This document shows, one piece after another, positions 4,156-51,554 of a stretch of 64,000 nucleotides of DNA (positions are counted from its first letter, which is position 1; each line of letters starts with the position of its first letter). Source of the stretch: Eubacteriales bacterium (GTDB lineage: Bacteria; Bacillota; Clostridia; Peptostreptococcales; Anaerovoracaceae); contig JAQXJR010000043.1 of assembly GCA_029009055.1 (NCBI GenBank), positions 1 to 64,000 on the forward strand. The letters are read 5' to 3'. Under the pieces are notes generated by a model. That model was not told the DNA's origin. It did no database searches and saw only the letters and a list, made by a program, of their open reading frames with translations. Both the position numbers and the translations under genes were made by a program.

Positions 4156-5409
4156 ATGGCTGAATACGATATCAGAGACATTTCGCTGGCGCCATCAGGC
4201 CACGAGAAAATAGAATGGGTGAAATATAACATGCCCGTGCTTAAGGGGCTGTCGGAAGAATTCTCTAAGACTAAGCCTTTCGCGGGCGTTAAGATATCCC
4301 TTTCCGTCCACCTGGAAGCTAAGACGGCTTATCTTTGCGAAGTGCTGGCTGACGGCGGAGCGCAGATGTATGTCACCGGGAGCAACTCCCTGTCCACACA
4401 GGATGACGTAGCTGCCGCCCTGGCAGATAAAGGGCTTTCCGTCTTTGCTTACCACGGCGCCACGGACGAAGAATATAACAGACACATAGAGATGTGCCTC
4501 TCACAGAAGCCTAATGTCATCATTGATGACGGCGGAGACCTGGTAGGCATGCTCCACACTAAGAGACCTGACCTGGCTGAAGAAGTCTGGGGAGGCTGCG
4601 AGGAGACGACTACGGGCATAGTTAGACTTAAAGCCATGGACAGGGACGGCGTGCTTAAGTTCCCTATGATGGCAGTGAATGACGCGAAATGTAAGCACTT
4701 ATTCGATAACAGATATGGAACGGGGCAGTCCGTTTGGGACAGCATAATGAGGAACACGAACCTGGTCGTGGCTTCGAAGACTGTGGTAGTCGTAGGATAC
4801 GGCTGGTGCGGTAAGGGCGTGGCTATGAGGGCTAACGGTCTCGGCGCCCGCGTCATAGTTACGGAAGTCGATCCGGTTAAGGCCATAGAAGCCAGAATGG
4901 ACGGATACGACGTCATGCCTATAGCTAAAGCCGCTGAAGTCGGCGACATATTCGTCTCAGTTACAGGAGACCTTAAGACCATAACTGTCGAGAACATGTT
5001 GAAGATGAAGGACAGGGCCATACTCTGCAACGCCGGACATTTCGACTGCGAAGTCGACATGTCAGGACTTAGAGAAGCCGCTGTCGAGTGTAAAGAGACC
5101 CGTCATAACATCATGGGATATAAACTGCCGAACGGTAAGTGGGTGAACGTAATTGGCGAGGGTAAGCTCGTTAACATAGCCGCGGCTGACGGACATCCGG
5201 CAGAGATCATGGACATGAGCTTCGCGGTTCAGGCTTTATCGGCTCTCTACATAGTTAAGAACCACGAGAAACTCGAGAAACACCTGCTCAGGGTTACGGA
5301 TGACATAGACGACGAGATCGCCAGAAGAAAACTCGCCGCCTGGGGCACAGAAATAGACAGCCTAACAGACGAGCAGCAGGAATACCTGAGCAGCTGGGAC
5401 GTAAGATAG
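4156..5409 (+). CDS. ahcY: S-adenosylhomocysteine hydrolase
   Basis: Reversibly splits S-adenosylhomocysteine into adenosine and homocysteine using bound NAD. Visible signatures are 'LSVHLEAKTAYL', 'GCEETTTGI', the Rossmann loop 'VVGYGWCGKGVA' near residue 220 and 'NIAAADGHPAEIMDMSFA'. At 417 aa it is the short form that lacks the insert of many proteobacterial and eukaryotic enzymes. Many Firmicutes recycle SAH through Pfs/LuxS, so the one-step enzyme is worth noting. The start has ribosome site TAGGAGA. It lies 30 bases after glmM with no terminator, so it may share that transcript. Use of a related substrate such as S-inosylhomocysteine, known in some archaeal homologues, cannot be excluded. 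Confidence 0.95.
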   Translation: MAEYDIRDISLAPSGHEKIEWVKYNMPVLKGLSEEFSKTKPFAGVKISLSVHLEAKTAYLCEVLADGGAQMYVTGSNSLSTQDDVAAALADKGLSVFAYHGATDEEYNRHIEMCLSQKPNVIIDDGGDLVGMLHTKRPDLAEEVWGGCEETTTGIVRLKAMDRDGVLKFPMMAVNDAKCKHLFDNRYGTGQSVWDSIMRNTNLVVASKTVVVVGYGWCGKGVAMRANGLGARVIVTEVDPVKAIEARMDGYDVMPIAKAAEVGDIFVSVTGDLKTITVENMLKMKDRAILCNAGHFDCEVDMSGLREAAVECKETRHNIMGYKLPNGKWVNVIGEGKLVNIAAADGHPAEIMDMSFAVQALSALYIVKNHEKLEKHLLRVTDDIDDEIARRKLAAWGTEIDSLTDEQQEYLSSWDVR

Positions 5410-6245: not shown

Positions 6246-7931
6246 ATGGAATCTGATAGAATCGCGGAGCTGCTGTTCCCAAACATCGATAAGACACCTG
6301 AATATTACGAAGAGAAATACCCGGAGAGGGATCTCCCTGAAGGCGCTATGGTAACCAGGCTCGGCCCGAGTCCTACAGGTTTCATACATCTGGGGAACCT
6401 GTACGGCGCTTTCGTGGACGAGAGGCTGGCTCATCAGAGCGGCGGTAAATTCTTCCTCAGGATAGAGGATACAGACGATAAGCGCTATGTAGAAGGCGCT
6501 GTGGACGTCATCATAAATTCACTGGACTTCTTCGGCATAGAATTCGACGAAGGAGCTACCCAGGAGGGCGATAAGGGAGATTACGGCCCATACACCCAGA
6601 GCCTGAGAGGAGATATCTACCAGTGCTTTGCTAAGAAACTCGTAGCGGAAGGTAAGGCATACCCTTGCTTCCTGACAGAGGAAGAAATAGCTGAGATCAG
6701 GGAGAGACAGGAATTAGCAAAGGTAACGCCTGGCATATATGGCGAATACGCCAGCTGCAGAGATTGGTCTTACGACCAGGTCGTGAAGGCTCTCGGCGAG
6801 AGGAGGCCTTACGTCATAAGGCTTAGATCTGACGGCTATCCACCTGAGGCATATATAAACGGCAGCGATGATAAGGCTATTAAGAAAATCAGGGTGAAGG
6901 ACGCCATCAGGGGCACGCTGGAGATGCCGGCCAACTTCCTGGACACTGTCATCCTGAAGACCACGGGCATACCGACATACCATTTCGCTCACGTCGTGGA
7001 CGACCATCTCATGAGGACGACTCATGTCGTAAGAGGCGCGGAGTGGCTGCCATCACTTCCTATCCATATAGAGCTCTTCGAGAAGCTCGGCTGGAAGCCG
7101 CCTGTTTACTGCCATACAGCTCAGCTCATGAAGCTGGATGAGAACGGAAATAAGAGAAAGCTGTCTAAGCGTAAGGACCCTGAGCTCTCATTGGATTATT
7201 ACAGGAACGAAGGCTACCACGCCGCGGCTCTGAGGGAATACCTCCTGACTATCCTGAACTCCAACTTCGAGGAGTGGAGGATGAAGAACGAGGACGCTCC
7301 TATAGAGGACTTTAAGTTCACGACTAAGAAGATGAGCAATTCCGGCGCGCTTTTCGACATAAATAAGCTGAACGACGTGGCTAAGGATGTCATGCTTAAG
7401 ATCCCAGCAAAGGACATAGCGGAATGGCTCAGGAGCTGGTCGGATCAGTTCGCGCCTGAGTACGCTGACATGTTCGAGGACATGGACTACCTGGAGAAGA
7501 TCCTGGATATTGGAAGGGAAGACCGCAAGCCTCGTAAGGACCTGGTATATGCCCGTCAGATCGTAGACTTCATCAGCTACTTCTTCGATAAGCACTTTAA
7601 GATAGAGGATCAGATCCCGGAGGAAGTGCCGGCTGAAGACGTTAAGAAGATCCTGGACGCTTATCTGGCAGGTTATGATCACTCAGATGACCAGAACGGC
7701 TGGTTCGGTAAAATCAGAGAGATAGCGACTGACCTCGGTTATGCTGCCAGACCTAAGGATTATAAGAAGAACCCGGACGACTATAAGGGACATGTGGGAC
7801 ATGTCAGCACAGTAATAAGGATAGCGCTCATGGGACGAGCTACATCGCCTGATGTTTGGACGATCCAGCAGATCATGGGCGAGGACATGACTAGAGCTAG
7901 AATCCGTAAATATATCGAAGAAAACTGCTAG
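6246..7931 (+). CDS. gltX: Glutamate--tRNA ligase
   Basis: Charges tRNA-Glu with glutamate. It is a class I synthetase with an ATP site 'RLGPSPTGFIHLGNLYGA' (HIGH motif as HLGN) around residues 38-55 and KMSKS as 'KLSKRKDPE'. The C-terminal part forms the anticodon-binding helical domain. Its 561 aa is longer than the usual 470-490, because of about 35 extra N-terminal residues and insertions, a variant I associate with Clostridia. Start ATG with ribosome site TTGGAGGATCT. Whether it is strictly Glu-specific or also charges tRNA-Gln cannot be read from the sequence. Confidence 0.95.
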   Translation: MESDRIAELLFPNIDKTPEYYEEKYPERDLPEGAMVTRLGPSPTGFIHLGNLYGAFVDERLAHQSGGKFFLRIEDTDDKRYVEGAVDVIINSLDFFGIEFDEGATQEGDKGDYGPYTQSLRGDIYQCFAKKLVAEGKAYPCFLTEEEIAEIRERQELAKVTPGIYGEYASCRDWSYDQVVKALGERRPYVIRLRSDGYPPEAYINGSDDKAIKKIRVKDAIRGTLEMPANFLDTVILKTTGIPTYHFAHVVDDHLMRTTHVVRGAEWLPSLPIHIELFEKLGWKPPVYCHTAQLMKLDENGNKRKLSKRKDPELSLDYYRNEGYHAAALREYLLTILNSNFEEWRMKNEDAPIEDFKFTTKKMSNSGALFDINKLNDVAKDVMLKIPAKDIAEWLRSWSDQFAPEYADMFEDMDYLEKILDIGREDRKPRKDLVYARQIVDFISYFFDKHFKIEDQIPEEVPAEDVKKILDAYLAGYDHSDDQNGWFGKIREIATDLGYAARPKDYKKNPDDYKGHVGHVSTVIRIALMGRATSPDVWTIQQIMGEDMTRARIRKYIEENC

Positions 7932-7968: not shown

Positions 7969-9750
7969 ATGAGTACGCAGCGGATGAATAAGCCGGAAGC
8001 GCCGCCGGAGACCGGAGCGGGAGGACTTATGGATAAGGAGAATGACAGGAAGCAGATGGAGGGCGGGCTCTATAACGCTCTCTTTACTGATGAGACGGCA
8101 GGTGAATATTTTAAGAGTTATGATATCTGCCATGAATTCAACAGCTTAGACCCGGAAGACGAACAGGGCAGGAAGGAGATACTACCCCGCCTGTTCGGCT
8201 CGATAGGAGCGGGCTGTCGGGTCCATCCTCCTGTCAGGATATTCCGAGGCGACCTCATAAGTCTGAGCGATAATGTCAGCATAGGAGCCGGCACCTGCAT
8301 ACTGGCGACTAACAGGGTGAAGATCGGAAGCAATACCATAATAGGTGACGAATGTTCTATTTCCTGCGCCGGCCACCCGATGGATAAGGACTTAAGAGCC
8401 CAGGGCCTGGAGTACGGCTGGCCTATAGAGATAGGTTCCGACGTAGTTCTCGGTATGGGAACATCCGTAGTACCTGGAGTCACTATAGGAGACGGAGCAG
8501 TCATTGGAGCAGGTTCAGTAGTAACTAAGAACATTCCCGCGGGAGTCTACGCAGATGGCAACCCTTGCCGGGTGAGGAGAAAACTCAGGACGCCGGAAGA
8601 GGAAGAACGCCTATATGGGGCTAAAGCCGCGGCAGATGCTGACCTGTCAGACCCGTCAGAAGTCCTCTGTCTTAAGATGAATCAGATAGCCTTATCGGAT
8701 TACGGTACGAGGACAGAGTTTCTTAAGGGCTTCATAGGTTCCATGGGAGATGATTCCATGACCATGAGCCCGGAATACATACGCCACGCTGACCGGCTTA
8801 ACATGGGGATCCACTCTTTCATAAATTATGACGGGCATATAGATGCCGCCGGCGGAGTGGAGATAAGGGACCATGTTCTGATAGCGCCTAACCCCATGAT
8901 AGACACGGTGATACTTCCGGAAGACCCTGAGCTTAGAAGACAGGGCCTCCGCTACACCGCTAAGGTCACTATAGAAGACGGCGTCTGGATGGGAGCCGGA
9001 GTCAGGGTCCTGCCTGGCGTGACTATCGGAGAGAACAGCGTCATAGGCGCGGGAAGCGTCGTGACGCATGACATACCTGCAGGCTGCCTGGCGGCGGGGA
9101 ACCCTTGCGAAGTCCGGAGGAAATTTACAGAGGAAGACTTTGCTAGATACACGCCTGACCCAGACGTCGTGAAAGACATGTCTGAGGTAGACAGAGAGTA
9201 CGCGCGGATCATCTACCACGCAATAATAGAGGACATAGAAGTCGACAGGCGAATATACTACGGACTGTCTGACGACTACGGCAGCATGCTGCCTTCAGCC
9301 TATAAGGAGAGGGCGGACGTCGCGGCTAAGATATTCCCTATCGCGAAGGGCAATATAGAGGTCTTCGGGCCGATCATCGTCGACCAGGGCTACAATGTCG
9401 AAGCAGACGGATATGTGTTTATAAACCATAATTTCATACTTTTAGCGACTAATAAGGTGAAATTCGGTAAGAATGTCCTGATCGGGCCTAACTGCGTAAT
9501 GAGCTGCGCCGGCCATCCTTTCAATATAGAAGAGAGAAGGGACGACCTGGAATACGCTTACCCAATAACCATCGGCGATGACGTATGGATAGGAGAGGGC
9601 TGTAAGATCCTGCCGGGCGTTACGGTCGGCAGCGGCTCAGTCATAGCCGCGGGAAGTGTCGTGGCTTACGATATACCTGAGGGCGTATTAGCGGCGGGGC
9701 AGCCAGCCAGACCTGTGAAGAGGATAAGCGGATTTAAGTCTGAAGAATAA
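7969..9750 (+). CDS. Triple hexapeptide-repeat O-acetyltransferase (three maltose/galactoside acetyltransferase-like units)
   Basis: One 593-aa chain holds three consecutive left-handed beta-helix acetyltransferase units of the maltose/nodulation (MAT/NodL/LacA) type, at roughly residues 25-205, 230-395 and 405-590. Each ends in the same signature: 'GDGAVIGAGSVVTKNIPAG', 'GENSVIGAGSVVTHDIPAG' and 'GSGSVIAAGSVVAYDIPEG', followed by 'GNPCRVRRK', 'GNPCEVRRK' or 'GQPARPVKR'. Units 1 and 3 keep the catalytic His in 'CAGHPMD' and 'CAGHPFN'; in unit 2 the equivalent stretch is 'IAPNPMID', so it is probably inactive. Such enzymes normally work as trimers of one unit. The acceptor sugar is unknown. 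The start is uncertain: ATG 7969 has no strong ribosome site, while ATG 8029 follows GGGAGGACTT. Confidence 0.85.
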   Translation: MSTQRMNKPEAPPETGAGGLMDKENDRKQMEGGLYNALFTDETAGEYFKSYDICHEFNSLDPEDEQGRKEILPRLFGSIGAGCRVHPPVRIFRGDLISLSDNVSIGAGTCILATNRVKIGSNTIIGDECSISCAGHPMDKDLRAQGLEYGWPIEIGSDVVLGMGTSVVPGVTIGDGAVIGAGSVVTKNIPAGVYADGNPCRVRRKLRTPEEEERLYGAKAAADADLSDPSEVLCLKMNQIALSDYGTRTEFLKGFIGSMGDDSMTMSPEYIRHADRLNMGIHSFINYDGHIDAAGGVEIRDHVLIAPNPMIDTVILPEDPELRRQGLRYTAKVTIEDGVWMGAGVRVLPGVTIGENSVIGAGSVVTHDIPAGCLAAGNPCEVRRKFTEEDFARYTPDPDVVKDMSEVDREYARIIYHAIIEDIEVDRRIYYGLSDDYGSMLPSAYKERADVAAKIFPIAKGNIEVFGPIIVDQGYNVEADGYVFINHNFILLATNKVKFGKNVLIGPNCVMSCAGHPFNIEERRDDLEYAYPITIGDDVWIGEGCKILPGVTVGSGSVIAAGSVVAYDIPEGVLAAGQPARPVKRISGFKSEE

Positions 9751-9796: not shown

Positions 9797-12700
9797 ATGG
9801 CCTTTACACATTTACATCTTCATACGGATTACAGCCTGCTCGACGGTGCCTGCAGGATAAGCGACGTCGTTTCCAGAGCTAAGGAACTGGGCATGGACAG
9901 CCTGGCGATAACGGACCACGGTAACATGTTCGGCGCCATAGACTTCTATAAGGAATGTAAGAAGCAGGGTATCCACCCTATCATCGGCTGTGAAGTCTAC
10001 CTGGCTGCCAGGGGCATGGAGGATAAGGACCCTGAGAAGGACCGCAGACGCAGCCATCTTATTTTGCTGGCTAAAACGAATAAGGGCTATCATAATCTCG
10101 TGAAGATAGTGTCTCTCGGCTACACGAAAGGTCTTTATTATAAGCCGAGGGTGGATAAGAATGTCCTGAGAAAGTATCACGAAGACGTGATAGCCACCTC
10201 AGCCTGCTTGGCTGGTAATATCCAGCGCTTCCTGGTGAATGGCCAGTATGACATGGCTAAGGCAGAGGCTGAGGAGATGAGAGACATATTCGGCGAAGAC
10301 TTCTATCTGGAGATTCAGAACCAGGGCGTTAAGGAAGAAGCCATGATAAACCCGAGTATTATCAAGCTCTCCCGGGAGCTTAACATACCGCTCGTGGCTA
10401 CTAACGACGTACATTATGTCAGACAGAGCGACGCTGAAGCCCACGACATACTTCTCTGCATCCAGACAGGCGCGACAGTTGACGATGAGAACAGGATGCG
10501 TTTCCAGACTGACCAGTTCTACCTGAAGAGCGAGGATGAGATGCGCGAGCTGTTTTCCGCTATCCCTGAAGCATGTGATAATACAGAGAAGATCGCGAAG
10601 TCCTGTAACGTGGAGTTCACGTTCGGTCAGTACCATCTTCCGGAGTTCACGCCTCCAGAAGGATACACTAATGACCAGTACCTGAGGAAGCTCTGCGCTG
10701 ACGGCCTCCGCGAGCGCTATGAGCATGTGACGCCTGACCTCGAGAAGAGGTTGGGGTATGAGCTCCATACCATAGAATCAATGGGCTATGTAGAGTACTT
10801 CCTCATAGTTTGGGATTTTATAAATTTCGCAAAGAGAAGCCATATAATGGTGGGCCCGGGCCGAGGGTCAGCTGCCGGATCAATAGTGGCTTACTGCCTT
10901 CATATCACTGAGTTAGACCCAATTAAATACAACCTTATATTCGAGCGTTTCCTGAACCCTGAGCGTGTCAGCATGCCTGATATAGACGTGGACTTCTGCA
11001 TAGAGCGAAGAGGCGAAGTCATAGATTACGTTAAGAGGAAATACGGGGAAGATAACGTGACACAGATAGTCACATTCGGGACACTTAAAGCTAAGATGGT
11101 CGTGAGAGATGTAGGAAGGGTCCTGAACCTCTCATACAGCGAAGCCGATAAGATAGCTAAAGCCATACCTTTCGAGCTTGGTATGACTCTGGAGAAGGCG
11201 CTAAATATGAGCCCGGACCTTAAGAAGATGTATGACGAAGATCCCAGGGCTAAGAAGGTCATAGACATATCCATGAAGCTGGAAGGCATGCCGCGCCATA
11301 CGTCCACACACGCTGCCGGCGTAGTGATTTCCAAACTCCCTGTGGATGAATATGTTCCGCTGTGTATGTCAGATAGGGGCGTGGCTACCCAGTATAATAT
11401 GACGACCATAGAGGAACTGGGGCTCCTGAAGATGGACTTCCTGGGTCTAAGGAACCTGACTGTTATCAGGGACGCTCTCGCTATGATAAAGGAAAATCAC
11501 GGTGTGGACCTGGATTTCTCTAAGATGGATTACGACGACCCCGAAGTATATAAGATGATAGCTGATGGGAACACGGCGGGCGTCTTCCAGCTGGAGTCTG
11601 AGGGGATGACGTCTTTCATGCAGAAGCTTAAGCCGAGCTGCTTCGAGGACATCATAGCCGGTATATCTCTATACAGACCGGGTCCTATGGACTCCATAGA
11701 TAAGTACATTGAGAATAAGAAACATCCTGAGGGAATTAAATACGTTACACCTGAGCTCGCTCATATCCTGGACGTGACATATGGCTGCCTGGTCTACCAG
11801 GAGCAGGTAATGCAGATAGTAAGAGATCTCGCCGGCTACTCCTACGGCAGGTCCGACCTTATGCGCCGCGCCATGTCTAAGAAGAAGAAACAGGTCATGA
11901 TGGAGGAGAAGGAGTACTTCATAAACGGTAAACTGGATGATCAGGGAAACGTGGAGATACCGGGCTGTATCAGGAACGGCATATCCAGGGAAGCGGCGGA
12001 AGCCATATATAGCGATATGGAGACATTCGCCCAGTACGCCTTCAATAAGTCACACGCTGCCGCTTACGCTGTCGTCGCCTATGAGACTGGCTACCTGAAG
12101 CGTTACTATGCCAGAGAGTTCATGGCGGCTCTCATGTCCAGCGTTATGAACGACTCATCACAGCTGGCTAAATACATAAGAAACAGCAGGGAGATGGGCA
12201 TAGAGATCACCCAGCCGAGCGTGAATGACTCTATGAGGAAGTTCACAGTTAAGGACGGTAAGATAGTCTATGGTCTCCAGGCTGTGAAGCATGTAGGAGA
12301 AGGTGCCATAGAGAATATAATTTCCGCCAGAGAGAGGAACGGTAAGCCGAGGAACATATTCCAGTTCATACGCGGCATAGACGTGAGCGTAGTAAATAAG
12401 AAAGCCGTGGAATGCCTTATTAAGGCTGGCGCGTTGGATTGTTTCAACACGAATAGAGCGGCTCATCTCGCTGTATACACGCAGCTCATGGAATCATCCC
12501 AGAATGAAGCTAAGAATAATGTCGCCGGTCAGATAAACCTATTCGACCTCGTGAGCGCGGACGAGCTGGGGTCAGATGTATCTGAGCAGCTGCCGCAGGT
12601 AAGAAATTTCGATAAGCGGACGATGCTCGCCTTGGAAAAAGAGGTGCTCGGGGTTTACATATCCGGACATCCTCTCGATGAGTTCGCTGACAGGATAGAG

Positions 12701-13426
12701 AAATATACTACAGCCAACAGCCGCCAGCTCCAGGCGTCAGTAAGACCCGCCGAGGATGATGAAGAGGGCGGCATAGACGAGGCGGGCTATAACGCCGGTC
12801 AGGTTTCAGATGTTTATGACGGTAAGACAGTGGTCATAGCAGGGATGATAGAGCACATTAAGGAGTTGGTCACTAAGAATTCCAAGCTGATGGCTTTCGT
12901 CGACATAGAGGACCTGTACGGCGAAATAGAGACAGTCGTCTTTCCGAATGTATACGAACAGTGCCGGCAGGCCATAGCGGAAGATAACGTCGTCGTCATG
13001 CGCGGTAAGCTGAATTTTAAGGAAGGCGAGGTGCCTAAGGTCCTGGCTGACAGGGTAGACCTCATAGATGAGTACGAGGATAATTTAGCAAAGGCGCGTG
13101 CCGGTATAAGCCGGGGCGGCTATGGAAATAGAGGGACGGGAGGCAGCCGGTATGCCGGCTCACAGGCCAGGGGACCTCAGCCTCTAAGTCAGGATTATAT
13201 TAAAATAAAGATCCCTGCCGGGTCAGACCAGGATGATGTGATAAGGTCTATAGACGCTATATCCATGTCACATCCCGGTCCATATGATATACTGGTATAC
13301 AGGCTCGACGGGAAGACGGTCAGGAAGAGAGGCAGGGGCGTGAGCCCCGATAAGGGCTTCTGCCGGGAGATGGACATCCTGGTCGGCAGAGAAAATATGA
13401 AGATAATAGACAGGAGTCAGAATTAA
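9797..13426 (+). CDS. dnaE: DNA polymerase III alpha subunit DnaE
   Basis: Replicative C-family DNA polymerase. N-terminal PHP domain begins 'FTHLHLHTDYSLLDGA' (residues 1 to about 215); the palm carries 'GPGRGSAAGSIVAY' and the catalytic 'PDIDVDFC' near residue 395, followed by fingers, helix-hairpin-helix and an OB domain near residues 1010-1090. A Gly/Arg-rich linker ('GGYGNRGTGGSRYAG') precedes a short C-terminal module. Its 1209 aa suits the family. Firmicutes usually also have PolC elsewhere. pfkA follows 71 bases downstream, a neighbourhood common in Firmicutes. Confidence 0.97.
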   Translation: MAFTHLHLHTDYSLLDGACRISDVVSRAKELGMDSLAITDHGNMFGAIDFYKECKKQGIHPIIGCEVYLAARGMEDKDPEKDRRRSHLILLAKTNKGYHNLVKIVSLGYTKGLYYKPRVDKNVLRKYHEDVIATSACLAGNIQRFLVNGQYDMAKAEAEEMRDIFGEDFYLEIQNQGVKEEAMINPSIIKLSRELNIPLVATNDVHYVRQSDAEAHDILLCIQTGATVDDENRMRFQTDQFYLKSEDEMRELFSAIPEACDNTEKIAKSCNVEFTFGQYHLPEFTPPEGYTNDQYLRKLCADGLRERYEHVTPDLEKRLGYELHTIESMGYVEYFLIVWDFINFAKRSHIMVGPGRGSAAGSIVAYCLHITELDPIKYNLIFERFLNPERVSMPDIDVDFCIERRGEVIDYVKRKYGEDNVTQIVTFGTLKAKMVVRDVGRVLNLSYSEADKIAKAIPFELGMTLEKALNMSPDLKKMYDEDPRAKKVIDISMKLEGMPRHTSTHAAGVVISKLPVDEYVPLCMSDRGVATQYNMTTIEELGLLKMDFLGLRNLTVIRDALAMIKENHGVDLDFSKMDYDDPEVYKMIADGNTAGVFQLESEGMTSFMQKLKPSCFEDIIAGISLYRPGPMDSIDKYIENKKHPEGIKYVTPELAHILDVTYGCLVYQEQVMQIVRDLAGYSYGRSDLMRRAMSKKKKQVMMEEKEYFINGKLDDQGNVEIPGCIRNGISREAAEAIYSDMETFAQYAFNKSHAAAYAVVAYETGYLKRYYAREFMAALMSSVMNDSSQLAKYIRNSREMGIEITQPSVNDSMRKFTVKDGKIVYGLQAVKHVGEGAIENIISARERNGKPRNIFQFIRGIDVSVVNKKAVECLIKAGALDCFNTNRAAHLAVYTQLMESSQNEAKNNVAGQINLFDLVSADELGSDVSEQLPQVRNFDKRTMLALEKEVLGVYISGHPLDEFADRIEKYTTANSRQLQASVRPAEDDEEGGIDEAGYNAGQVSDVYDGKTVVIAGMIEHIKELVTKNSKLMAFVDIEDLYGEIETVVFPNVYEQCRQAIAEDNVVVMRGKLNFKEGEVPKVLADRVDLIDEYEDNLAKARAGISRGGYGNRGTGGSRYAGSQARGPQPLSQDYIKIKIPAGSDQDDVIRSIDAISMSHPGPYDILVYRLDGKTVRKRGRGVSPDKGFCREMDILVGRENMKIIDRSQN

Positions 13427-18664: not shown

Positions 18665-19672
18665 ATGAATAATTGGGAACTTACTAAGGACGAAGAATTT
18701 AAGAACAGGAAGCTCGAGAAAGCTATTCAGGAGTATAACTTAGATGAAAATGAAGATACTCTGGCAGGAGTTTTAACTGAGCTTATGGACAGAATGTCTG
18801 TGGGAGGCCAGGTAGATGTACCTGTAGCTCTGTCTGATGAATTTAAGAGGGAATTCGATAATCAGACGGACGGTATGACATTCAACCTGGATCTGAGGAC
18901 GATAGAAGATGATGAGGGAAATGACTGGGTCCCTCTGTTCACGAACGCCGGCGCTGCTAAATCAGGTGGAAAGACTGATCTCATAGCCTATGATATAGCG
19001 GATATTATTAAGCAGATCGTAGATATAGAGGATATTAATGGAGCCATAATAGACCCGTGGACTACACCTTTCGAAGTTGATAGAGGAGCAATAAACATGC
19101 TGCTCAGCGTTATTGATAACACGGAGGGAGGAGCGCTGAACCTGATCCAGGGCGATATAGTGACCATGGATGTGCAGGCTATTGTAAACCCTTCTAATAA
19201 TATGCTGACGGCGGCTCCGGACGACGACAGCATAAACGGTCTTATCCACAGGGCGGCAGGCCCGGGACTAGACGCCGAGTGCAGGACTCTTCACGGCATA
19301 GCTACGGGTGAGGCTAAGATAACAGACGGATATGACCTCCAGGCGGAGTATGTCATCCATACAGCTGGGCCTATATATTCCGGAAAGCCTTCTGATGAGG
19401 AAGAACTGGCGGAATGCTACGAGAACGCTCTGGACCTGGCCAGGACCCACGGCATAACATCTATTGCCTTACCTTGCATATCTACAGGAGCGTTCGGCTA
19501 TCCGGCTGAGGACGCGGCAGATATCGCTATACCGACTGTGCTTGAGTGGATCAGCGATAACGATGATTATGACCTGAATGTTACATTCTGCGTCCACGAT
19601 GAGGATACTTATGATATGTATAAGGGCTTCCTGGACCAGATATTCGACAGCAGCGATACAGATGAGCAGTAA
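18665..19672 (+). CDS. SseB-domain/macrodomain fusion protein
   Basis: Two-domain cytosolic protein of 335 aa. Residues about 15-155 resemble the SseB N-terminal domain ('WVPLFTNAGAA', 'NGAIIDPWTTPFEVDRGAI'). Residues about 160-330 are a macrodomain that would bind or hydrolyse ADP-ribose: 'LIQGDIVTMDVQAIVNPSNN', 'IHTAGPIY', 'CISTGAFGYPAEDAA'. The first loop has Asp in 'GDIV' and Asn in 'VNPSNN', as in active macrodomains. The Asn/Gly-rich second loop typical of MacroD enzymes ('NAANSSLLGGGGVDG') is replaced by 'NPSNNMLTAAPDDDSINGLI', so hydrolysis is uncertain. Its end overlaps addA by 11 bases. Start ATG after CCAAGGAGAACAC. Confidence 0.85.
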   Translation: MNNWELTKDEEFKNRKLEKAIQEYNLDENEDTLAGVLTELMDRMSVGGQVDVPVALSDEFKREFDNQTDGMTFNLDLRTIEDDEGNDWVPLFTNAGAAKSGGKTDLIAYDIADIIKQIVDIEDINGAIIDPWTTPFEVDRGAINMLLSVIDNTEGGALNLIQGDIVTMDVQAIVNPSNNMLTAAPDDDSINGLIHRAAGPGLDAECRTLHGIATGEAKITDGYDLQAEYVIHTAGPIYSGKPSDEEELAECYENALDLARTHGITSIALPCISTGAFGYPAEDAADIAIPTVLEWISDNDDYDLNVTFCVHDEDTYDMYKGFLDQIFDSSDTDEQ

Positions 19673-47098: not shown

Positions 47099-49246
47099 AT
47101 GAAAATTGGCAAGCCAGTAGTTAAATGCCGCTATATCATCCTCATCGTCTCTCTGATCCTGCTGATACCTTCAGTCATAGGAATGCGGGCGACGAGAGTC
47201 AATTATGATATGCTGACATACCTGCCTGAGGACATGGAGACCATGAAGGGGCAGAAACTTCTGCAGAAGGACTTCGGTAAGGGCGCTTTCAGCCTGATCG
47301 TGGTCGAGAACATGAAGTCGGAGCAGATAGAAAAGACAGCGTCGGATATTAAGAAGATAGATCACGTAGAGTCTGTGATAAATCTAGAGAAGGTCATAGA
47401 TCCTAACGTGCCGATTTCTATGTATCCGGAGCAGGTAAGAAAGAACTTCCATAAACAGGGCGCTACGATCCTGGCAGTCTTCTTCGATACCGACACTTCG
47501 GCAGAGCCGACGATAAACGCTATAACTCAGATAAGGAACACAGTATCTAAGAACTGTTATGTTTCAGGTATGAGCGCTCTGGTCACAGACCTTAAGGCCA
47601 TGTGCGAAGCCGAGGAGGCTAAATATGTCGGTGTAGCAGTGCTTCTGGCTCTGGCAGCTATGATGCTTCTGCTGGACTCATACGTCGTACCTTTCATATT
47701 CCTTCTTAGTATAGGTGTGGCTATCCTGTTCAACATGGGATCTAACATCATATTCGGAGAGATATCTTACATCACTAAAGCTATAGCAGCTGTACTTCAG
47801 CTGGCTGTTACCATGGACTACTCCATATTCCTATGGCACAGCTATACGGAGAATCTGGAGAAGTACGATAATAGAAACGACGCCATGGCTGCCGCTATAG
47901 ATAATACTCTGGTCTCAGTGACCGGTAGCTCGGTCACGACCATAGCCGGCTTCCTGGCTCTGTGCGCCATGTCATATACCATGGGTAAGGACCTGGGATT
48001 AGTAATGGCTAAGGGCTGCCTGCTCGGCGTTATCGTCAGCGTTACGGTCCTTCCGTCCATGATCCTGCTCATGCATAAGGTCCTTATGAGGACCAGACAT
48101 AAGGCTCTTCTGCCGGATGTATCCATAATAGCGGATAAGATCCTGAACCATTACGTCATATATCTGATCATATTCGCCGTACTTCTGGTTCCAGCGATCA
48201 TCGGATATAATAACGAGAATGTTATCTACGACTTCTCTAAGACAGTCGGAAGCGCTAAGACGCTGCCGGCAGATCAGACCAGATTCCTTACAGCTAATGA
48301 GAAGCTGAGGAAGGACTTTAATATAGAGACTACTCACATGATCATAGCGGACGCGGACCTCTCGGCTAAGGATGGAGCCGTTATGAGTAAAGACATAGAA
48401 GATGTCGATGGGGTCCAGACCGTGCTTGGCATAGACGCCCTCACGGGTGGAACGATACCTCGTGAGATCCTGCCTCAGGAGCTTACGGATTCCCTGATCG
48501 CTAAGGGACACCAGCTGATAATGGTGAATTCTTCATATAAAGTCTCAACAGACGAATGTAACAAGCAGATAGATAAGATAAATCAGATCGTAGCTAAATA
48601 CGATAAGACAGCTAAGGTAATTGGAGAGGGACCTGCGACTAAGGATCTGATAAACCTGACCAGTAAGGACTTTAAGGTAGTAAGCTGGATATCTATAGCC
48701 GCGGTATTCGTTATCATACTGCTGGTATTGAGATCATTCTCGCTGCCATTCATCCTGGTAGCTGTCATAGAGTTCGCTATATATATCAACCTGGGCATAC
48801 CAGGGTATACGCACCTGGAACTGCCTTTCATAGTGCCTGTACTCATAAGTACTATCCAGCTCGGTTCTACTGTAGACTACGCGATCTTGTTCACGACGAG
48901 GTTTAAGACAGAGAGGATAGCCGGACACACCAAGCATGAATCCATAGAGATAGCGGCTAAAACATGTATACCTTCTATCCTGGTGAGCGCTCTCGGTTTC
49001 TTCGCCGCGACGTTCGGCGTAGCCGTATACTCTAATATTGAGATCATAAGCACACTTTGCAGCATGATGGCCAGAGGCGCGCTCATAAGTATGATTTGCG
49101 TTATACTGGTGCTCCCTGCTTTGCTGATGGCATTAGATAAAGTTATATGTAAGACGACTAACGGCATGCGTGATATATATAAGAGAGATGCTGAACAAGC
49201 GGATGCTCCTGCTGGGCAGCTGATCGGAGGGAATGAAAATGAATAA
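47099..49246 (+). CDS. MMPL/RND-family exporter
   Basis: Membrane transporter of 715 aa with the RND layout in two halves: TM1 (residues 12-30), an extracellular loop, a cluster of five or six helices ending near 350, and the same pattern again. The first half carries 'VTMDYSIFLWHSYTE' and the second 'GSTVDYAILFTTRFKTE', the Asp-Tyr pairs of the proton relay in MMPL proteins. ATG 47099 after GAGGGGAAG is preferred to TTG 47075. Substrate unknown; likely a lipid or hydrophobic compound. Overlaps the next gene. Confidence 0.92.
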   Translation: MKIGKPVVKCRYIILIVSLILLIPSVIGMRATRVNYDMLTYLPEDMETMKGQKLLQKDFGKGAFSLIVVENMKSEQIEKTASDIKKIDHVESVINLEKVIDPNVPISMYPEQVRKNFHKQGATILAVFFDTDTSAEPTINAITQIRNTVSKNCYVSGMSALVTDLKAMCEAEEAKYVGVAVLLALAAMMLLLDSYVVPFIFLLSIGVAILFNMGSNIIFGEISYITKAIAAVLQLAVTMDYSIFLWHSYTENLEKYDNRNDAMAAAIDNTLVSVTGSSVTTIAGFLALCAMSYTMGKDLGLVMAKGCLLGVIVSVTVLPSMILLMHKVLMRTRHKALLPDVSIIADKILNHYVIYLIIFAVLLVPAIIGYNNENVIYDFSKTVGSAKTLPADQTRFLTANEKLRKDFNIETTHMIIADADLSAKDGAVMSKDIEDVDGVQTVLGIDALTGGTIPREILPQELTDSLIAKGHQLIMVNSSYKVSTDECNKQIDKINQIVAKYDKTAKVIGEGPATKDLINLTSKDFKVVSWISIAAVFVIILLVLRSFSLPFILVAVIEFAIYINLGIPGYTHLELPFIVPVLISTIQLGSTVDYAILFTTRFKTERIAGHTKHESIEIAAKTCIPSILVSALGFFAATFGVAVYSNIEIISTLCSMMARGALISMICVILVLPALLMALDKVICKTTNGMRDIYKRDAEQADAPAGQLIGGNENE

Positions 49247-51554
49247 TCTCATTAAGAATAATTATAAGAAAATCATTGCTGGAGCTCTGGCTGTTGCTAT
49301 GGTCGGTGGATCGGCAGCTGTATATACAGCTAGAAGCACATCTTACGCGGATGAAGATAACGGTACTCAGAAGGAATTCGAGCAGGCGGCGAATAATCTG
49401 ATAAACAGCGCCAACTCCTCGGACGACGAGCTTTCTAAGGAAGAGACTACATACGCTGTCCTGAACGCGGATGGTTCGACTAAGAAGGTCTACGTTAATG
49501 AATGGCTGAAGAACGGAACGGATGACGCGGTAATCGATGATTACACCACACTGAAGGATTTTAAGAACATATCCGGGGATGAGGAATACACTACGAGTGG
49601 GAATTCTGTCACCTGGCACGCTAATGGTAAGGATATTAAGTATCAGGCGTCTTACACGGGAAAGCTTCCTGTGACTGTTAAAGTCACATATTATCTGAAC
49701 GGTAAGAAGACAGACCCGGATAAGATGGCTGGGAAGAGCGGTGATGTGGAGATCCATTTCAGCTATGATGTGAATGAGTCCAGGACTGTATTGAGTTCCG
49801 GCTCTTCATATAACTTAAAGCAGCCTTATGCGGTAGTCAGCGGACTTATGCTGGATACGAATGACTTCTCAGACGTATCTATAAATTCAGGGAAAATCGT
49901 AGAACAGGGTAATAATGACTTCGTCGTAGGTCTGGCTTTCCCAGAGATGAATGAGAACCTCGACATATCTAAGTCCAGCGTGGACATTCCCGATGAGGTA
50001 GTCGTAAGGGCTCAGACATCTGATTTTCATATAGACGGGACATATAGTGTGGCCATGACAGGGCTTTTCAGTGACATAGACACATCATCAGCTGACAGTG
50101 TTAAAGCTAAGATGAATGAGCTTGAAAACGGATTAGATGAGCTGTCTAAGGCTTCTGAGAAGTTAGTTAAGGGCTCTGATGAACTGGCTGACGGAGCCGC
50201 TAAGCTGGCTAAGGGTTCTAAGAAGCTTTACGCCGGAACGGATGAGGCTTTCGGCCAGGTCGATAAAATTAATAAAGAATTCCAGACACTGGCGCCTAAC
50301 CTGATTAAAACGGCTCAGGGTGTAGATAAGCTGGAGAAGCAGCTTAATGACGGTCTCACACAGCTTAACGACGGCGCCTCTCAGCTCAGCACGGGCCTTA
50401 AGCAGCTCAGCGCCAACAGTAAGGCTATAAACGATGGATCAGACCAGATAGAGACAGCTATATTTAAGTCCGCTTCAGATCAGCTGCAGAAAGCTACAGG
50501 TATTAATAACATATCACTCGACAGATCTAATTATAAGCAGGTCATAGAAGGAATCCCGTCTGCTGCCGTAAAACAGGCTGTAGAGACTATAAGAGCTCAG
50601 ATAAAGCAGGCTGCGCCTGATTCTACAGAATCTGATCAGAATCTGATCATGTCTATGGCTTATATGATGAACCCGACTAGTATGAAGGAAATCACAGCTG
50701 ATATCCAGAAGGCCAGTAAGGAAGCTCAGGAGGCGGCTTTCGTAGGGAACGCCGCAGCAAACGCTGAATATCAGAAGGCTGCTGTGGCGATCATTAAGGC
50801 TAAGGGAGGAACTCCTGATGAGAACACTATTATTGCTTACTGCACAGCTATGGCTGTAGCGGGCAGCACAGATTCGACGGTGTTCGGATCCGATCAGGTA
50901 AAGGCTAAGGTAAAAGAACTCCTTAATGCGGCGGAAGACGCTAAGGTGGCTCAGCAGAACACAGCTGCTAACGTTCAGGCTTTAGGAGCTTTAGCTGTAC
51001 AGCTTAAACAGCTTGAGACAGGTAAGACCGCTGAACAGACTTCCGCGGAACTTCAGGCAGTAGAGAAGCAGCTCGACAGTGTCGTTACATATGTTAATGG
51101 AGTAAAGACATATACAGCAGGTGTAGATTCCGCTTATAAGGGGAGCACACAGCTCCTGTCAGGGATCCAGGACGCTACGAAGAAAGTCGATAACGGTCTC
51201 GGTAAGTTCAATACATATTACAACAAATTCAAGAAATATATCCCTCAGATCCCTGGGTATGCCAATAAGTTCGATAAGGGCATGAAGCAGATAAACGACG
51301 GAGCAGAGCAGGTATCAGATGGTTCCGCTAAACTTTCTAAGGGAGCGGATAAGCTGGCTGAAGGTATGAGTAAGTTCGATAAAGATGGAATACAGAAGCT
51401 GGTCAACTCCCTCGACACTAAGGACCTGGAGAAGGTATCCAACAGGTTCAGAGCTCTGGCTGACGCGTCTAAGGATCCTGTATTCGTCGGAGGTAAGCTC
51501 AGCAGCATGCCTGGTAGCAGTAAGATCGTATTCAAGACAGCTGAGATAAAATAA
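49239..51554 (+). CDS. Secreted heptad-repeat (X-X-X-Leu-X-X-Gly) protein
   Basis: 771-aa exported protein. Signal segment 'IIAGALAVAMVGGSAAVYTA' near residues 12-31, a beta-rich region with 'LPVTVKVTYYLNGKKTDPDKMAGKSG' around 150, and later repeats such as 'LSKASEKLVKGSDELADGAAKLAKGSKKLYAGT' and 'INDGAEQVSDGSAKLSKGADKLAEGM'. These match the repeats of YhgE/Pip proteins, but no C-terminal membrane helices are present, so it is probably anchored by its N-terminus or free. It starts within the last codons of the exporter and is probably its extracellular partner. ATG 49239 fits GGAGGG best. Confidence 0.85.
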   Translation: MNNLIKNNYKKIIAGALAVAMVGGSAAVYTARSTSYADEDNGTQKEFEQAANNLINSANSSDDELSKEETTYAVLNADGSTKKVYVNEWLKNGTDDAVIDDYTTLKDFKNISGDEEYTTSGNSVTWHANGKDIKYQASYTGKLPVTVKVTYYLNGKKTDPDKMAGKSGDVEIHFSYDVNESRTVLSSGSSYNLKQPYAVVSGLMLDTNDFSDVSINSGKIVEQGNNDFVVGLAFPEMNENLDISKSSVDIPDEVVVRAQTSDFHIDGTYSVAMTGLFSDIDTSSADSVKAKMNELENGLDELSKASEKLVKGSDELADGAAKLAKGSKKLYAGTDEAFGQVDKINKEFQTLAPNLIKTAQGVDKLEKQLNDGLTQLNDGASQLSTGLKQLSANSKAINDGSDQIETAIFKSASDQLQKATGINNISLDRSNYKQVIEGIPSAAVKQAVETIRAQIKQAAPDSTESDQNLIMSMAYMMNPTSMKEITADIQKASKEAQEAAFVGNAAANAEYQKAAVAIIKAKGGTPDENTIIAYCTAMAVAGSTDSTVFGSDQVKAKVKELLNAAEDAKVAQQNTAANVQALGALAVQLKQLETGKTAEQTSAELQAVEKQLDSVVTYVNGVKTYTAGVDSAYKGSTQLLSGIQDATKKVDNGLGKFNTYYNKFKKYIPQIPGYANKFDKGMKQINDGAEQVSDGSAKLSKGADKLAEGMSKFDKDGIQKLVNSLDTKDLEKVSNRFRALADASKDPVFVGGKLSSMPGSSKIVFKTAEIK

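Follow-up and report, generated by a model that had tools for sequence, protein, structure and literature searches.

Hexapeptide acetyltransferases are textbook homotrimers with shared active sites, and a natural single-chain version would let each half-site mutate independently. How such a chain would assemble, and how many of its sites would stay alive, is the question raised by a gene in the window, by which we mean the whole 64,000-nucleotide stretch of DNA analysed.

A three-unit acetyltransferase gene and its genomic slot

The gene is one uninterrupted open reading frame (ORF) at 7969-9750 on the + strand, coding for 593 aa with three units of the MAT/LacA type, and was found in one genome only. 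An initial annotation had proposed that three acetyltransferase units share this chain, and this is borne out by the LacA and MAT models, each of which matches three times along the ORF, and by the hexapeptide stretches found. Pfam reports Hexapep repeats (1.7e-34) and a Mac cap (5.4e-11, residues 31-80, in unit 1); a Mac-like segment is present in unit 3 but is unscored by Pfam, and the unit 2 version is shortened. The closest solved structures are maltose and galactoside O-acetyltransferases. The start codon is probably the ATG at 8029, which would give a protein of 573 aa, because a GGGAGGA motif precedes it at 8019-8025 and the resulting N-terminus resembles those of homologs. The neighbouring genes we take from their sequences to be of the gltX and dnaE types.

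6246..7931, + strand: gltX-type gene 37 bp upstream of the ORF, bounding the syntenic slot on the left
7969..9750, + strand: triple acetyltransferase ORF, 593 aa; probable true start 8029 (573 aa)
8019..8025, + strand: Shine-Dalgarno-like GGGAGGA ahead of ATG 8029 (sequence reading and homolog N-termini)
8029..8598, + strand: unit 1 (residues 21-210), Mac cap and left-handed beta helix; the His loop is intact and the Asn/Trp face has decayed
8599..9174, + strand: unit 2 (residues 211-402), cap shortened; Asn/Trp face intact, catalytic His lost
9175..9747, + strand: unit 3 (residues 403-593), full Asn/His/Trp set
9797..13426, + strand: dnaE-type gene 46 bp downstream of the ORF, bounding the syntenic slot on the right

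Summed over the three stretches, the LacA model scores 339 bits and the MAT model 268.7 bits, below the NCBIfam cut-offs of 347 and 314 respectively, and a single-unit protein from G203, a genome of the same genus, also falls below these cut-offs. A gamma-carbonic anhydrase model failed, with 101 bits against a cut-off of 250 and far under the LacA and MAT scores. We thus place the protein in the MAT/LacA family, as neither an annotated LacA nor an annotated MAT.

The three units are 29-34% identical at the amino acid level over their full length in a shared alignment (38-43% by local BLAST), and their third codon positions, at 28-33% identity, are randomised. The units therefore appear to be old, all three having stayed open and protein-like, and the saturated third positions rule out a recent tandem duplication.

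Relatives in the same genus provide a context for the locus. G203 and G204 carry a single-unit gene in the gltX-dnaE interval, the slot occupied by the window triple, and G200, G142 and others have the interval without such a gene. Window units 1 and 3 group with the G203 and G204 singles in the tree (97/98), and the unit 3 helix is 62-63% identical to them; they differ from the window protein in having one unit of 209-210 aa with a complete site. Window unit 2 is a long branch that groups weakly with unit 2 of a second triple, in G1148 (92/59), and a separate source for it is possible. Elsewhere, a lone TAG is all that separates two in-frame single-unit acetyltransferase genes arranged head to tail (L090:780-1931), an arrangement that could plausibly represent a step towards fusion.

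Among other features of these genomes, we note that the G204 interval (L071:3041-5999) also contains a Macro-domain protein, a VWA-like protein and a 282-aa protein that by eye we take to be ADP-ribosylglycohydrolase-like, and the interval is therefore seen as one that gathers accessory genes. The window itself encodes an SseB N-terminal domain fused to a Macro domain of the O-acetyl-ADP-ribose deacetylase type (18665-19672), and a 773-aa ORF without a Pfam match that adjoins an MMPL-family gene (49233-51554).

Catalytic residues in the three units

The positions of LacA Asn85, His115, Arg122 and Trp139 are unchanged in 54/54 single-unit homologs, a sample that includes LacA and a MAT. In the window the Arg is retained in all three units, and the other three positions are as follows.

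8284..8286, + strand: Gly106, LacA Asn85 position, lost in unit 1 (Asn in 54/54 singles)
8374..8376, + strand: His136, catalytic His of unit 1, kept (alignment with singles)
8446..8448, + strand: Val160, LacA Trp139 position, lost in unit 1 (Trp in 54/54 singles)
8824..8826, + strand: Asn286, LacA Asn85 position, kept in unit 2 (alignment with singles)
8914..8916, + strand: Leu316, catalytic His115 position, lost in unit 2 (His in 54/54 singles)
8986..8988, + strand: Trp340, LacA Trp139 position, kept in unit 2 (alignment with singles)
9424..9426, + strand: Asn486, kept in unit 3 (alignment with singles)
9514..9516, + strand: His516, kept in unit 3 (alignment with singles)
9586..9588, + strand: Trp540, kept in unit 3 (alignment with singles)

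Unit 1 has thus lost the Asn85 and Trp139 equivalents and retains its His, unit 2 has lost only the His115 equivalent, and unit 3 has lost nothing. The complete set is present in unit 3 alone, and Asn, His and Trp are all accounted for only at the level of the chain. The initial annotation was right that 'AGHP' is kept in units 1 and 3 and that unit 2 lacks the His, but its placing of 'APNPMID' at the position of 'AGHP' does not hold, as 'APN' aligns to LacA A105-P106-N107, and Leu316, within 'TVILPED', occupies the place of the His. A search for a replacement His in the unit 2 loop found none, so the loss there stands. Its picture of units 1 and 3 as sound and unit 2 as dead has to be given up, as unit 1 is itself without two of the catalytic equivalents.

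Beyond the catalytic columns, the faces of the units have decayed unevenly. Profile scores against the single-unit proteins, expressed as z, are -7.9 for the Asn/Trp face of unit 1 versus 0.0 for its His loop, a trend repeated in a smaller sample. At conserved columns, unit 1 losses number 4/8 on the Asn/Trp face versus 2/35 elsewhere (p=0.007, the face having been defined post hoc). The Asn/Trp faces of unit 2 (z -0.5) and unit 3 are normal. The case for unit 2 is weaker than that for unit 1: its His loop falls slightly below the singles (z -1.5), and the z of -7.3 for its hexad 3 has a counterpart in unit 3, where hexad 3 is also low (z -4.7). This unevenness weighs against the ring favoured below, and the contrast within unit 1 weighs for it.

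A second triple and its sister

A search for the same triple architecture, proposed in the initial annotation, succeeded. A phylum-wide scan identified a 610-aa ORF, likely encoding 602 aa, with three MAT/LacA units in G1148, a single-contig genome from a different family of the same phylum. Unit 1 of this triple is complete, the Asn of unit 2 is replaced by Glu286 and the His of unit 3 by Arg518, and Trp is retained throughout. Complementary half-site losses in one three-unit chain are therefore present in both the window and G1148, one Asn and one His having been lost in the latter, and the two share the cyclic order of Asn lost, His lost and intact, with the positions rotated by one.

The sister genome G1296 also has three units, in which all nine catalytic residues are retained. 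In its gene (L118:2335-5976) an insertion with an IS605 OrfB-type gene with TnpB domains (4180-5298) separates unit 2 from unit 3, and both remaining parts are open. Because G1296 keeps all nine residues, the simplest history would place the G1148 losses after fusion. The pair gives dN/dS values of 0.15, 0.11 and 0.22 for units 1, 2 and 3; dS between the window units is saturated, and dN/dS was drawn from this pair only. Units 1 and 3 of G1148 do not join the clade formed by window units 1 and 3, so the two fusions probably arose separately. Further triples were sought in about 1,990 scans of genomes, some of them covered repeatedly, and in plasmids, phages and viral contigs, and only the G1148/G1296 pair emerged; a scan of genome contigs gave only weak single-unit matches. 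In the literature searched, no triple MAT/LacA protein was described.

Assembly of the chain and comparison with known systems

MAT, GAT and other hexapeptide acetyltransferases that work with acetyl-CoA have a conserved Trp that lies opposite the catalytic His but on the adjacent subunit (PMC3046976), and in CatB the His is supplied by a second monomer (PMC8096840). If sites are shared in this way between neighbours in the window protein, units 1 and 2 would each be short of one complementary half-site. We place Asn85 on the Trp side of the interface, from hexad register rather than coordinates, because Asn85 and Trp139 are both in the second hexad of a coil, Trp139 two coils on.

The reading that we favour, with moderate confidence, is that the protein is an intramolecular pseudo-heterotrimer, a sugar O-acetyltransferase in which two sites are live and one is dead. 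Three MAT/LacA-family subunits fused in one chain would fold into their own ring, with one composite site per unit-unit interface at which the His loop of each unit meets the Asn/Trp face of the unit before it. Complete sites would then be formed by His136 of unit 1 with Asn486/Trp540 of unit 3, and by His516 of unit 3 with Asn286/Trp340 of unit 2. The third site would be dead from both sides, Leu316 of unit 2 lying opposite Gly106/Val160 of unit 1. Linkers of about 27 and 30 residues from helix end to next cap, measured on the alignment, would permit ring closure, a point of plausibility only. We infer the closure, its handedness and the count of two live sites, and predict activity with acetyl-CoA and sugar; with the His facing the preceding unit, both losses would coincide in one site and leave two whole. 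This handedness also fits unit 3, which keeps all its catalytic residues and both of whose halves would face intact partners. Partner subunits that supply the missing halves from elsewhere are ruled out, as the genome contains no other MAT-type unit and only two weak hexapeptide matches.

The closed pseudo-trimer put forward initially is not visible in the full-chain structure predictions, which are too weak to display packing. AlphaFold without an alignment gave pLDDT 40.6 and pTM 0.29. A second model reached pLDDT 64.8 and pTM 0.49 and is confident only in the unit 3 helix and the unit 1 cap, the parts covered by its input alignment; MAFFT split homologs or stacked them on one unit, never on three units together. 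The unit 3 helix is modelled at pLDDT 90-98 and lies within 0.8 A over 117 columns of MAT structures, and Foldseek returns LacA/MAT structures as best matches to the second model, confirming the unit 3 fold only. The absence of confident unit-unit packing would also suit an arrangement without closure within the chain, in which three chains join like units (or swap), the unit 3 trimer alone is active, with units 1 and 2 playing a passive part. MAT/LacA enzymes are usually homotrimers of separate chains and unit 3 alone is complete, but this arrangement leaves unexplained the canonical His loop of unit 1, the canonical Asn/Trp face of unit 2 and the matching cyclic order in G1148, and we consider it unlikely. 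Contacts between unlike units of separate chains would yield the identical loss pattern.

The same residues are also consistent with a ring of the opposite hand, in which each His faces the Asn/Trp of the following unit, leaving His136 with Asn286/Trp340 as the one live site and the other two half-dead. One live site of three would match the plant gamma-carbonic anhydrase (PMC7447434). However, both halves of unit 3 would then meet dead partners, yet this unit keeps all its catalytic residues; G1148 would also be left with one site and the halves of its intact unit stranded, and both triples must each have lost two separate sites. We regard this ring as rather improbable.

Less probable still is that units 1 and 2 are simply decaying and that the pattern of losses is coincidental, with no special assembly. 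Were each triple to lose two of its six half-sites by chance alone, the losses would fall on one composite site with the same handedness in both with a probability of 6/15 x 3/15, or about 0.08, and some face scores are low in units with intact sites as well, including the Asn/Trp face of S3 of G1296 (z -4.4). Against this, reading frame, codon composition and scaffold residues are kept in all three window units although third positions are saturated, and purifying selection acts on the units of the G1148/G1296 pair (T and S). With two triples being few, we take the shared pattern as well motivated and supporting rather than conclusive. An assembly or annotation artefact that joined separate genes is scarcely credible: the window triple comes from a single genome, but its units are too divergent for a repeat-collapse error, conserved gltX and dnaE lie on either side, and the second triple occurs in a genome of one contig.

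The proposal of an intramolecular trimer with non-equivalent sites thus draws indirect support from matching complementary losses in two triples and from a sister without losses. If the pseudo-heterotrimer is correct, two acetyl-CoA per chain are predicted, with named residue pairs, which is directly testable. A broader scenario, which we offer tentatively as somewhat doubtful, is that a homotrimeric sugar acetyltransferase became a single-chain heterotrimer at least twice in bacteria, and that one site was then lost on both faces and may have another role, such as binding of a regulator or partner. The triples would provide a ready-made system for studying the reasons for enzyme symmetry, the need for all three sites and the loss of symmetry through fusion and decay; G1296, its gene split but no catalytic residue lost, and G1148, with two losses, offer a before-and-after comparison.

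Among known systems, E. coli LacA (1kqa) and the maltose acetyltransferases (3srt, 1ocx) align along the length of the window units, with a Mac cap and left-handed beta helix, and their Asn/His/Arg/Trp set is present in unit 3. Known LacA and MAT proteins have one unit per chain and assemble as homotrimers whose three sites are equal, whereas the window protein has three unequal units in one chain. The gamma-carbonic anhydrase of plant mitochondrial complex I is a heterotrimer of the hexapeptide fold in which one of the three interfaces is complete (PMC7447434). It differs in consisting of separate polypeptides, in its Zn-site chemistry and in being part of complex I, but resembles the proposed arrangement in that its hexapeptide-fold subunits are non-identical and bring all the catalytic residues together at one interface only (PMC7447434).
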